Below the pieces are notes generated by a model. It worked only from the letters and a program-made list of their open reading frames with translations, made no database searches and was not told the DNA's origin. A stretch of 64,000 nucleotides of DNA. Origin: Dialister hominis (GTDB lineage Bacteria > Bacillota > Negativicutes > Veillonellales > Dialisteraceae). The stretch lies in NCBI RefSeq assembly GCF_007164725.1, contig NZ_AP019697.1, positions 850,001-914,000 of the forward strand, read 5' to 3'. This document shows, one piece after another, positions 53,381 to 57,996 of this stretch; position 1 is the first letter of the stretch, and every line of letters starts with the position of its first letter. The position numbers and the translations under genes were made by a program.

Positions 53381-53417
53381 TTTGACCTATTGACTTTTTG
53401 ATTTATTGTTTTATAAT
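53381..53417 (+). promoter_or_regulatory. Promoter of ctsR operon with CtsR-like operator
   Basis: TTGACT (53390-53395), a 16-base spacer and TATAAT (53412-53417). TTTGACC at 53381-53387 is a perfect CtsR heptad (reverse GGTCAAA); the expected second heptad is only partly kept (TGACTTT at 53391-53397). Autoregulation by CtsR is likely but the site is degenerate. Confidence 0.65.
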
Positions 53418-53454: not shown

Positions 53455-53958
53455 ATGAATAATTCAATGTTATCTGACAGGATTGAAAAGTTTATTTTGG
53501 AAATGCTGGGTAAACAGTCAACTGATGAAATTTTACTGAAAAGGAAAGATGTGGCAGATTTATTAGAATGTGCTCCTTCTCAAGTTACGTATGTAATTAA
53601 TACCAGATTTTCTCCCGATAATCGTTTTGTCGTGGAATCAAGGCGCGGAAGCGGAGGATATATCAAGATATCGTTAAGGGAAGATAATGCACCTTCACAT
53701 TCTAAGGATCAGGCTTCATCCAAGACCAGAAGCAGTACCAGCACAGGAGGGAAACAACGAACCAATGAAATTCATCCCAATAGTATTACAGAAATAGAGA
53801 ATGGATTAGACAGCTATTTCAGAATGCTCTTAGACTATGAAATTATCTCGTCCAGAGAATACAGATTAATTTGTACACTAACTCATACAATGCTGGAGTA
53901 TTGTCCTGAAAGCCACCGTCGTGAGGCGGCCAAGACAATGATTCATAGAATTGAATAG
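53455..53958 (+). CDS. ctsR: Transcriptional repressor CtsR
   Basis: 167 residues. The DNA-binding winged helix keeps ADLLECAPSQVTYVINTRF and the glycine-rich wing ESRRGSGGYIKI that reads the operator. The C-terminal domain (about 110-165) contains the SSREYRLI region. CtsR represses clp genes and is inactivated by heat or by the McsA/McsB pair. A Ser/Thr-rich linker of about 25 residues between the domains is longer than usual. The ribosome site AAGGGAGGG is strong. Confidence 0.94.
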   Translation: MNNSMLSDRIEKFILEMLGKQSTDEILLKRKDVADLLECAPSQVTYVINTRFSPDNRFVVESRRGSGGYIKISLREDNAPSHSKDQASSKTRSSTSTGGKQRTNEIHPNSITEIENGLDSYFRMLLDYEIISSREYRLICTLTHTMLEYCPESHRREAAKTMIHRIE

Positions 53959-53977: not shown

Positions 53978-54508
53978 ATGCTTTGTGATTCTTGTCATCA
54001 AAAAGAAGCTGTCATTCATATGACGCAAGTGGTTAATGGCAGAAGATCTGAACGGCATTTATGCCGGGATTGTGCCAGGAAAGAAAATTTGATCAACGAT
54101 CCGTTTGATCTTTGGAATCAGGAAGTTTTTGCTCATCCATTTGATTCCTTTTTCGGTAATGACTTTGTCAATCCTTTCCAGCATGCAGAGCAGAACCTGC
54201 AGCCTGGTTTGTCATGTTCCAATTGCGGGAAGACATATCAGGATTTTAGAAAGGATGGTCTGCTTGGCTGCGAGGAGTGCTATAACCAGTTCCGTTCCAA
54301 ATTGAAAAATTTCCTGAATAAAAATCAGGGAACTGATCAGCATAGCGGAAAGGCTCCTGGTAAACAGGACGAGGAAAAAACAGAAGGAATGTCTGAAATC
54401 AATCGGCTGAAAAGTGAGCTCAAGAAGTGCATCAAGGAAGAAAACTACGAACAGGCAGCTGTAATCAGAGATCAGATTAATAAACTTGAGGGAGGCAGCT
54501 CTAAATGA
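53978..54508 (+). CDS. mcsA: McsA, zinc-binding activator of the CtsR-Clp system
   Basis: 176 residues from the ATG at 53978 behind AAAGGAGA; a TTG at 53951 within ctsR is unlikely. C3-x2-C6 and C29-x2-C32 form the first zinc site, a second CSNC / CEEC pair follows near residues 79-100, and a UVR coiled-coil motif closes the protein (SELKKCIKEENYEQAAVIRDQ). McsA normally activates McsB. It overlaps mcsB by 4 bases. Confidence 0.92.
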   Translation: MLCDSCHQKEAVIHMTQVVNGRRSERHLCRDCARKENLINDPFDLWNQEVFAHPFDSFFGNDFVNPFQHAEQNLQPGLSCSNCGKTYQDFRKDGLLGCEECYNQFRSKLKNFLNKNQGTDQHSGKAPGKQDEEKTEGMSEINRLKSELKKCIKEENYEQAAVIRDQINKLEGGSSK

Positions 54509-55548
54509 AATTAGAGGAGTTTTTAGCCGGCCCGGCAGGCGGCTTGACTGATGGAAACCAGGATCGGTCTGAATTTGGGAAGCGAATCTGCATCAGGAGG
54601 AATATAAGCGGATTTCATTTTCCGGAGAAGCTTTCCATGCAGGAAAGACAAAAGGTCTTGTCTGAAATACAAAGGGCTCTTGATGCAGCTGGACTTGATG
54701 CTGAAGAGTATCCGCTGGCAGGCATGGATTCAAACGAAAGACAGGTATTGCTTGACAGAGGCATGATTCCGAAAAAGAGTCTGCGGAATTTAAATGGAAT
54801 AAGTTTGTTCCCGATTGGAGACGGACATATTTCTCTCCTGTCTAATGCATTGGATCATATATGCCTCAATGCAGTCGGCCATGCGGATTCTTTCTCTGGC
54901 AGCTGGAAAGATTTAACACAAATTGATGATAAATTATCTCAATCAATCCGCTATGCTTATGATAATCAATTCGGCTATTTAACGGGATCTATTTTTAATA
55001 CGGGTACCGGATTAGCTGCCGAGGCAATGCTCTTCCTTCCAGGTCTTACTGCCAACGGCAGGATCAGGGATCTGGCCAGGGCTGTTGAACGGCAGGGATT
55101 TTCCATCAGGAGCCTGACAGGTAATGATTCCTGGAATAGTGCCTTTTATGAAATAAAGTCTACACAGACGATCGGTGTCCAGGAAGAAAAGTATATGCAA
55201 AGATTTGATTCGCTTCTTTCGGATATCAACGACATCGAAAACCAGTACTGGGAAAAGATGTTCAAAGGTTCTGAGATAACTATCAGGGATCAGATCTGGA
55301 GGGCATTGGGAACTTTGAAATATGCCCGGCAGATTGACGGACAGGAAGCGATGAAACTGGCAGGCCTTATAAAAGCTGGCGTAAAAGAGAAAATGATACC
55401 AGATAAGAATGGGTTATTATTTCATCAAATCTTTTCTCTGGTTTCAAATAACCAGGTCGCTTATACGACACATAAAGAAATGGATGATGCACAATCAATC
55501 AATGCATGGCGTGCTGCTTTGCTGAGAGATGCAGTTAAAGAATTATAA
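54505..55548 (+). CDS. mcsB: McsB-family guanido-kinase homologue, probably catalytically dead
   Basis: 347 residues, aligned over the full length with protein-arginine kinase McsB. The scaffold is kept (RRNISGFHFP, FGYLT, NTGTGL, YEIKSTQTIG). The key residues are not. The NEEDH loop is N114-A-L-D-H118, so the catalytic Glu121 equivalent is L116. The Glu212 equivalent is N207 in GND. The Cys167 equivalent is S162. The ATP-binding Arg in GTGLR is A171, and SSRIRLARN is GKRICIRRN. The gene is intact, has normal codon use and lies between mcsA and clpC, so it is likely kept for a non-catalytic task such as binding CtsR, McsA or ClpC. Confidence 0.88.
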   Translation: MKLEEFLAGPAGGLTDGNQDRSEFGKRICIRRNISGFHFPEKLSMQERQKVLSEIQRALDAAGLDAEEYPLAGMDSNERQVLLDRGMIPKKSLRNLNGISLFPIGDGHISLLSNALDHICLNAVGHADSFSGSWKDLTQIDDKLSQSIRYAYDNQFGYLTGSIFNTGTGLAAEAMLFLPGLTANGRIRDLARAVERQGFSIRSLTGNDSWNSAFYEIKSTQTIGVQEEKYMQRFDSLLSDINDIENQYWEKMFKGSEITIRDQIWRALGTLKYARQIDGQEAMKLAGLIKAGVKEKMIPDKNGLLFHQIFSLVSNNQVAYTTHKEMDDAQSINAWRAALLRDAVKEL

Positions 55549-55584: not shown

Positions 55585-57996
55585 ATGGAAGATAGATATA
55601 CTGATGGTGTTAAGAATGCCTGGAAATTTGCAGCACAGGAAGCTGCAAAATTGGGCAGCGATTACATCGGTACTGAGCACTTGCTGATTGGCATTGCTCA
55701 TGAAGGAGATTCCGCAGGCGGAAAGATTTTAAATTCCCTGGGGATTACTGTTGGTACTCTGGAAGAGCTTTTGTCCGGCAGCAGAAATACATCCCTGTCC
55801 CGGAGATCCGAACTGTATGTTGCACCGCGTACAAAACGCGTACTGGAGATGGCTGTCGAAGAAGCCAATGAACTCGGAAATTCTTATGTCGGGACAGAAC
55901 ATCTGCTTCTGGCAATACTGCACGAAGGCGGCCTGGCTGTAAGAATTTTAGAGCAGCTGGGAGTCACTGAGGATAAACTTCAGAAAGCATTTGAAGATGT
56001 ACTTTCTGAGGATAATTCCAAGAGTGATCAATCGGCTTCCCTTGGCGATTTAAGTGACTTTGCCATTGATTTGAATGAACGTGCCAAACAGGGAAAAATC
56101 GATCCTGTCATTGGCCGCGAGGAAGAAATCAACAGAGTTATTCAAATTCTGTCCAGAAGAAGCAAAAACAATCCTGTGCTTATTGGCGAACCTGGCGTTG
56201 GTAAAACTGCTATCGCGGAAGGCCTGGCTCAGAGAATCGTAAACAATGATGTGCCTGAAATATTGAAAAACTGCCATATTATTTCACTGAATATGTCTGC
56301 AGTTGTTGCTGGCACAAAGTACAGAGGTGAATTTGAGGAAAGGCTGAAAAAGGTGCTGGATACCGTCAAGCAGCATCCCGACTGGATTCTGTTCATTGAT
56401 GAACTCCATACACTGGTAGGAGCAGGTTCCAGCGAAGGTTCCATGGATGCAGCAAATATCATGAAACCTGCACTTGCAAGAGGTGAGCTTCACTGCATTG
56501 GCGCTACAACCCTGAAAGAATATAAAAAATATATCGAAAAGGATGCAGCTTTGGAAAGACGTTTCCAGCCTGTAAAGGTAGGAGAACCGAATCCTGCAGA
56601 TACCCTTCGTATTCTGGAAGGCCTGCGCGACAGATATGAGGCATTCCATAAGGCTAAAATTACTGATGAAGCATTGAAGGCTGCTGTTGAGCTTTCCGGA
56701 CGTTATATTACGGATAGATTCCAGCCGGATAAATCAATTGATGTAATCGATGAAGCGGCTGCCAAGGTACGTATGGAAGCTTCTTCAGCACCAGAAGGAC
56801 TTAAAAACAAGGAAGCCCAGCTTGCATCCCTGCAGAAAGAAAAGGAAGCGGCAATCTCCACGCAGGACTATGAACGCGCTGCTATTTACCGTGACCAGTC
56901 CAAGAAGCTTGAAGCGGATATCGAACAGTTGAAGAAAGAATGGAAAGGTGCTGACCATGATCATCTTACTGTAACTGAAGAAGATGTTGCAGAAGTTGTT
57001 TCCAAATGGACAGGTGTTCCTCTCCAGAACCTGAAGAAGAGCGATTCCGAACGTCTGCTTCACCTGGAAGATGAACTCCATAAGAGAGTCATCGGACAGG
57101 ATGATGCTGTTCATGCGGTTGCTACTGCAATCCGCCGTGCGAGAGCAGGCATGAAGGATCCAAAACGCCCGATTGGTTCTTTCCTGTTCCTCGGTTCGAC
57201 CGGTGTCGGCAAAACGGAACTGGCACGTGCCCTGGCAGAGACAATGTTTGGCAGCGAAAAGAATATGATTCGTTTTGATATGTCCGAATACATGGAAAAG
57301 CATGAAGTTTCGCGTCTGGTCGGTGCACCTCCAGGATACGTCGGATACGAAGAAGGCGGTCAATTGACAGATGCCGTCAGAAAGAATCCTTACAGTGTCA
57401 TTCTCTTTGATGAAGTAGAAAAAGCTCACATGGATTTCTTCAATATCCTGCTGCAGGTATTGGATGACGGCCGCCTGACAGACGGTCAGGGACGTACGGT
57501 TGATTTCACAAACTGTGTCATCATAATGACAAGCAACCTGGGATCCAATTATCTCAAGGGACACGTAAAGAAACCGGGCTTCTCTTCTGATAGTGATGAT
57601 AAGAAGGATGAAGATTTCGAATCGATCAAGGAAACAATCCTTGCTGAAGTAAAGCGTACCTTCAGACCGGAATTCATCAACCGTATCGATGAAATCATTG
57701 TTTTCCATCCATTGACGGAAGAGAACCTTTCTGCCATCGTAAATCTGCTTTTGAAAGATGTAGAAAAGAAACTGGAACATTTCAATGTAAGTCTTGAAAT
57801 TTCTGATTCCGCTAAGAAGCTTCTGATCAAAGATGGTACAGATATTGAGTATGGTGCCCGTCCTTTGAAGAGGGTTATTCAGAAAGAAATCGAAGATCCG
57901 GTTGCCAACTTGATTCTGGAAGATGGATTGGAAGGCAAGTCAGTACTTCAGATTAATACGGACGACAAGAATAAATTGACTTTTACAGCTAAATAA
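55585..57996 (+). CDS. clpC: ATP-dependent Clp protease ATP-binding subunit ClpC
   Basis: 803 residues. Two N-terminal Clp repeats (about 1-145) each keep GTEH, whose Glu residues bind phospho-arginine in Bacillus ClpC. Then come AAA1 with GEPGVGKT, a middle domain with a UVR motif (about 415-450), and AAA2 with GSTGVGKT and the [10 protein letters not shown] pore-loop region. It unfolds substrates for ClpP. It is the last gene of the ctsR operon, with AAGGAGGG before the start. Confidence 0.97.

Follow-up and report, generated by a model that had tools for sequence, protein, structure and literature searches.

Comparison with related proteins indicates that the mcsB gene of the window (the whole 64,000-nucleotide stretch of Dialister hominis DNA analyzed here) encodes a protein that has lost the arginine-kinase active site, and this conclusion is well supported by the residues replaced. 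We lean toward the reading that the gene product is a pseudokinase McsB, bound to McsA and modulating CtsR independently of phosphorylation, in a lineage without arginine phosphorylation.

The pseudo-mcsB gene (54505 to 55548, 347 aa) was recognized from its open reading frame, profile matches, alignment and predicted model. It is in frame and full length, with mcsA on one side, clpC on the other and ctsR upstream, all on the + strand in the order ctsR-mcsA-mcsB-clpC. The heat-shock repressor gene ctsR occupies 53455 to 53958 (Pfam CtsR, E = 7.4e-27), and mcsA occupies 53978 to 54508 (NCBIfam McsA model, E = 6.3e-36; UVR, E = 2.1e-11), for which the ATG at 53978 is a likelier start than the TTG codon at 53951. 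Comparison with relatives demonstrated that zinc fingers 1 and 2 and the UVR motif of McsA are intact; finger 2, the McsB-binding finger, spans 54215 to 54280 on the + strand (C89 to C110, numbered from 53951). The clpC gene (55585 to 57996) was assigned from its open reading frame and comparison with relatives. Window McsB matched Pfam ATP-gua_Ptrans (E = 8e-29) and the NCBIfam McsB models (E down to 1e-58), yet scored 80-199 bits against cut-offs of 381-679, and it missed the NCBIfam equivalog cut-off (NF053707, 500 bits) with 148.8 bits. Both the guanido-kinase catalytic domain and the McsB dimerization domain are present (Pfam, Foldseek). The open reading frame, Pfam and NCBIfam data bear out a first-pass annotation of this DNA, which had placed a full-length gene in a normal operon. 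A second guanido kinase, for which that annotation had proposed a search, was ruled out: the genome (2.41 Mb, one contig) yielded a single PF00217 match, the window mcsB itself.

Window McsB was aligned with B. subtilis McsB, S. aureus McsB and 114 relatives, and seven sites were scored (R29, E121, R125, C167, R176, R207 and E212; B. subtilis numbering). Five of these seven catalytic or ATP-site residues are replaced, as is R31; the positions that follow are all on the + strand. L116 (54850 to 54852) stands in place of catalytic E121, S162 (54988 to 54990) in place of C167, and N207 (55123 to 55125) in place of catalytic E212, within a lid loop that is degenerate by regional conservation. Among the essential arginines R29, R31, R34, R125, R176 and R207, three are gone: R31 is C29 (54589 to 54591), the ATP-site R125 is C120 (54862 to 54864), and R176 of the GTGLR motif is A171 (55015 to 55017), with R29 (as R27), R34 and R207 retained. 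In B. subtilis McsB, in vitro activity is lost with any one of R29K, R31K, R34K, R125K, R176K, R207K and R337K, and the usual kinase-inactive mutant is C167S (PMC7235348). The E121, C167, R176 and E212 replacements had been named in the first-pass annotation, with a constant offset of 5 residues at three sites; all are real and in register, and this offset holds at all four downstream sites, with an offset of 2 at R29. The change of SSR to GKR that it had reported is also real, R29 itself being kept. The alignment with McsB proteins, which it had proposed as a check, added the R125 and R31 changes to its list, and the replacements together support its claim that the protein-arginine kinase active site is lost. 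At the C-terminus, the alignment demonstrated INAWRA (55498 to 55515) where the phospho-arginine receptor motif RDxxRA was expected; the first Arg and the Asp of this motif are also missing in S. aureus McsB, so the change is supportive only. R337 of the motif was not used as a sign of an active kinase, since S. aureus McsB is without it, as are several other families of the class.

The same degeneracy was observed in relatives. The window's own family, Dialisteraceae of the order Veillonellales, is called f1 here; f2, f3 and f4 are other families of the order, and f14 is a further family. McsB was degenerate in 9 of 9 f1 copies and 16 of 16 f2 copies, and all seven sites were intact in the 28 of 28 copies read from f3 and f4. 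Chance, misalignment and sequencing error were excluded, since the losses recur in every f1 copy, from independent genomes, and every copy from the two intact families keeps the seven sites. The degeneracy described in the first-pass annotation is therefore real, but its picture of a single odd gene did not hold, the loss being a trait of whole families. Among 80 named-genome loci, 73 were intact and 7 degenerate (six from the window's order and one from Pectinatus). A first scan of the genome contigs with the window protein alone as query gave no match.

The residues lost differ between families. E121 is lost throughout f1, as is E212 apart from one doubtful case (G009, with a Glu aligned beside a gap), and the f2 copies lost R125, R176 and R207, often keeping E121 or E212. 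Common to both families are C167S (other residues in a few f2 copies) and the loss of TN from CPTN. Decay is graded in f14, which includes the Pectinatus-type McsB: E121D, E212D, C167Y/S/V/Q and R207H/Q occur in many of its 29 copies, and two copies are fully intact. The f14 loci L177-L196, L213-L216, L056, L060, L073 and L074 run from all sites intact to the loss of four or five, in a family where no YwlE was found. This graded decay is possibly a time series of kinase loss.

It is very improbable that window McsB still has a kinase or another ATP-dependent activity provided by other side chains. The retained R29, R34 and R207 would suit such an activity, as would the R125, R176 and R207 kept in f1 genera g3 and g4. 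However, the E121 and E212 positions vary freely across f1 with no consistent compensating acid, the catalytic lid in genome G007 is six residues shorter, and the phosphatase YwlE is absent. In f2 it is the ATP-site arginines that were lost, which points to a general release of constraint.

Low-molecular-weight phosphatases (PF01451) were present in most genomes of the order and sorted into an ordinary type with the motif CHGNICRS, an ArsC-like type, and the YwlE type with the motif CTGNTCRS. The YwlE-type arginine phosphatase, a search for which had also been proposed in the first-pass annotation, was absent from the window genome by motif pattern and phosphatase tree; the motifs seen there were only CHGNICRS, CTHNACRS and that of one degenerate paralogue. 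By pattern, the YwlE motif was found in 0 of 29 f1 and f2 genomes versus 31 of 32 f3 and f4 genomes. The CHGNICRS group lies on one side of a well-supported branch of the phosphatase tree, apart from the YwlE type, and both types can co-occur in f3 and f4 genomes; f1 and f2 therefore lost the YwlE gene and did not just change its motif. The lone exception in f3 and f4, G046 (f4, L145), carries a decayed YwlE (CSDNTYQS), and McsB and ClpC of this type are also absent from it. A second low-molecular-weight phosphatase paralogue in f1 (L108, in G000 at about 2322404-2322820; L113, L114 and L115) has a degenerate P-loop, such as HTGTGQPP or HTGTGEPP, and is apparently a pseudophosphatase.

Over the 115 McsB copies of the class, which are non-independent and yield three contrasts on supported branches of the tree, 55 were intact with YwlE, 52 degenerate without YwlE, 8 intact without YwlE, and none degenerate with YwlE. 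The eight intact copies without YwlE comprise four whose genomes carry YwlE-like proteins with a variant motif (CSGNTCRS in three, CTGNICRS in one), two from incomplete genomes, and two true cases from f14. In a sign test on the tree, about two contrasts agreed and none opposed; with only three independent contrasts, significance is unreachable. An order of loss with the eraser (YwlE) first and the writer (McsB) second fits the f14 pattern.

That f1 and f2 go back to one ancestral loss, as their common C167S and lost TN had suggested, was rejected by the ClpC tree, which groups f1 with intact f3 (support 99) and rejects an f1 plus f2 clade (p-AU 0.003). Independent losses in f1 and f2 are favoured on this basis, with a long-branch caveat. 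Tentatively, three families may have independently dismantled arginine phosphorylation, the eraser being lost and the writer then killed, with McsB kept as a non-catalytic CtsR regulator.

The inactive protein appears to have kept its fold. The AlphaFold model of window McsB (pLDDT 91.2, pTM 0.87) matched known structures over its full length in Foldseek (6tv6, TM 0.89; 6fh1, TM 0.89; 8gqd, TM 0.84), one TM 0.89 target being the octameric B. subtilis McsB and the TM 0.84 target the McsB of a McsA-McsB complex, and the McsB fold is predicted to be retained. In S. aureus McsB, Y147-Y153 forms the McsA-contact loop (PMC12467219). Its counterpart in the window is YDNQFGY (residues 152-158; 54958 to 54978, + strand). 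Within f1 this loop is the most conserved region, its identity being 2.2 times the mean for the protein, versus about 1.0 in f3 and f4. The catalytic lid goes the other way, from 1.3 times the mean in f3 and f4 down to 0.70 in f1, where it is among the least conserved regions. Both features looked for in a scaffold, the contact loop and zinc finger 2 of McsA, are thus retained.

Selection on mcsB in f1 is relaxed yet present, with dN/dS well below 1. The ratio was 0.11 for G003/G005 and 0.17-0.26 within g3, whereas clpC of these pairs gave 0.03-0.06 (mcsB about four times clpC) and mcsB of active f4 pairs gave 0.03-0.09; these values are rough because several dS estimates are near saturation. 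The model and the dN/dS values support a folded protein that selection maintains. An alternative is that mcsB is on its way out after the loss of YwlE and the kinase, only weakly kept, with deletion as the end point. Consistent with this are the dN/dS above that of neighbouring clpC, the great length of branches in the McsB tree, and the complete loss of mcsB in two sister genomes (G001 and G002). The alternative is nevertheless quite improbable, as the open reading frame is intact in 8 of 8 f1 copies uncut by a contig end and in 16 of 16 f2 copies, dN/dS stays well below 1, conservation of the McsA-contact loop exceeds that in the active families, and new residues (W134, W249, F177 and W335) have become invariant specifically in f1.

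Natural separations of McsB, McsA and ClpC were found in three genomes. In G001 and G002, of the same genus as the window, mcsB has been lost by deletion, leaving mcsA directly next to clpC; McsA has kept zinc finger 1 and its finger 2 is gone. Since both genomes are near complete, mcsB is not essential in every species. The deletion is clean at L224 (G002) and L226 (G001), and ClpC of G002 carries E106 to A. In G016 (f2; L345, 4332-6297), ctsR, mcsA and pseudo-mcsB are followed by radA, and a whole-genome search for clpC at E 1e-100 found none, only ClpB-like matches; here it is zinc finger 1 of McsA that is missing, with finger 2 retained. The window has finger 2, as do all McsB-bearing genomes for which the reading of McsA extended far enough. 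This finger therefore tracks McsB and not kinase activity, being lost without McsB (G001 and G002) and kept with a pseudo-McsB, and G016 indicates that pseudo-McsB can persist without ClpC. As the first pattern was seen in two genomes and the second in one, the co-retention of finger 2 with McsB and the ClpC-free persistence are suggestive rather than statistical. The HxGKVPxRG stretch after McsA zinc finger 2 (window about 54281-54380) is conserved in f2 and many McsA proteins and is degenerate in f1 genus g1.

The first-pass annotation had proposed a pseudokinase acting as an adaptor. The pseudokinase part stands; for its function, the comparative evidence, including pseudo-McsB without ClpC in G016, favours binding to McsA and control of CtsR. 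It is unlikely that pseudo-McsB is an adaptor delivering CtsR and misfolded proteins to ClpC without phosphorylation. In favour of such an adaptor, mcsB and clpC are neighbours in the window, as they are in the examined f1 and f2 genomes having both, window ClpC keeps both GTEH glutamates, and B. subtilis McsB C167S retains partial adaptor function, in MgsR turnover (PMC7235348). Against it, pseudo-McsB occurs without ClpC in G016, ClpC occurs without McsB in G001 and G002, and the GTEH motifs are kept also where McsB is absent. Both GTEH motifs were indeed present in window ClpC, as first annotated, but their use as a sign of phospho-arginine reading was rejected, because they are kept whether McsB is active or not, and G001 keeps both glutamates without any McsB. 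The f1 ClpC pocket is also drifting (T81 to A/S; T31 to I/V/L in some; E106 to A in G002), so ClpC says little about phospho-arginine.

The probable ctsR-operon promoter (53381 to 53417, + strand) comprises a heptad TTTGACC (53381-53387), a -35 element TTGACT (53390-53395) and a -10 element TATAAT (53412-53417). TTTGACY/TATTGACY repeats occur at the same place upstream of ctsR in relatives. Upstream of ctsR in the window and at L248, L250, L251 and L224, TTTGACY heptads lie at 8-base steps over the -35 element; they face the opposite way to the AGTCAAA repeats seen in other families, and canonical CtsR spacing is 10 bases. A canonical 17-bp CtsR box was not found upstream of window ctsR. Because the TTTGACC and TTGACT elements lie around a good -35/-10 pair and are repeated in relatives, the sequence suggests that CtsR autoregulation persists in the window lineage, and CtsR would bind at this promoter.

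Under the preferred reading of a McsA-bound CtsR modulator, McsA zinc finger 2 would hold the McsB dimer through the contact loop, pseudo-McsB would bind McsA and CtsR, and a step releasing CtsR would follow, with arginine phosphorylation gone from the lineage as its writer would be dead and its eraser gone. In B. subtilis, thiol stress oxidizes McsA finger 2, and the released McsB removes CtsR from DNA independently of its kinase activity (PMC5506225, PMC7235348). Because B. subtilis McsB has such kinase-independent activity, the simplest account is that a scaffold function is what remains, and window McsB may well serve as a scaffold. Counting against this reading, most McsB adaptor activity toward ClpC in B. 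subtilis is kinase-dependent (PMC5506225), and mcsB evolves faster than clpC, has been deleted in two genomes and follows a promoter region without a canonical CtsR box.

The McsB family, the operon and kinase-independent functions are already known. Window McsB resembles the McsB kinases of B. subtilis, G. stearothermophilus and S. aureus in its two-domain full-length fold, operon position, two-finger McsA partner, McsA-contact loop and conserved dimerization helices, and differs in the replacement of E121, E212, C167, R125 and R176, the absence of YwlE, and the missing first half of the receptor motif. It shares the Cys to Ser change with the B. subtilis C167S mutant, which retains kinase-independent function (PMC7235348), but the window change is natural, fixed across families, and accompanied by the loss of many more residues. 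Like eukaryotic and bacterial Ser/Thr pseudokinases, it would be a dead kinase fold kept as a scaffold or allosteric partner, although its guanido-kinase fold is unrelated. A literature search that fell short of most subscription journals found no published account of any pseudokinase in the McsB family, nor of a natural and family-wide dead McsB tied to YwlE loss, and no paper on McsB in Negativicutes; matches for Megasphaera and for Dialister with arginine kinase were unrelated.

In B. subtilis, the entanglement of the kinase and adaptor functions of McsB has made it difficult to tell scaffold and phosphorylation roles apart (PMC5506225). These lineages have pulled them apart by nature, with a dead McsB retained alongside McsA in some genomes, ClpC left after the deletion of McsB in others, and McsB persisting without ClpC in one. 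The annotation "protein arginine kinase" is probably wrong in these bacteria, and degradation tagging by phospho-arginine should be absent from them. If three families did dismantle arginine phosphorylation independently, what selection preserves longest in McsB would be the scaffold function and not the kinase.
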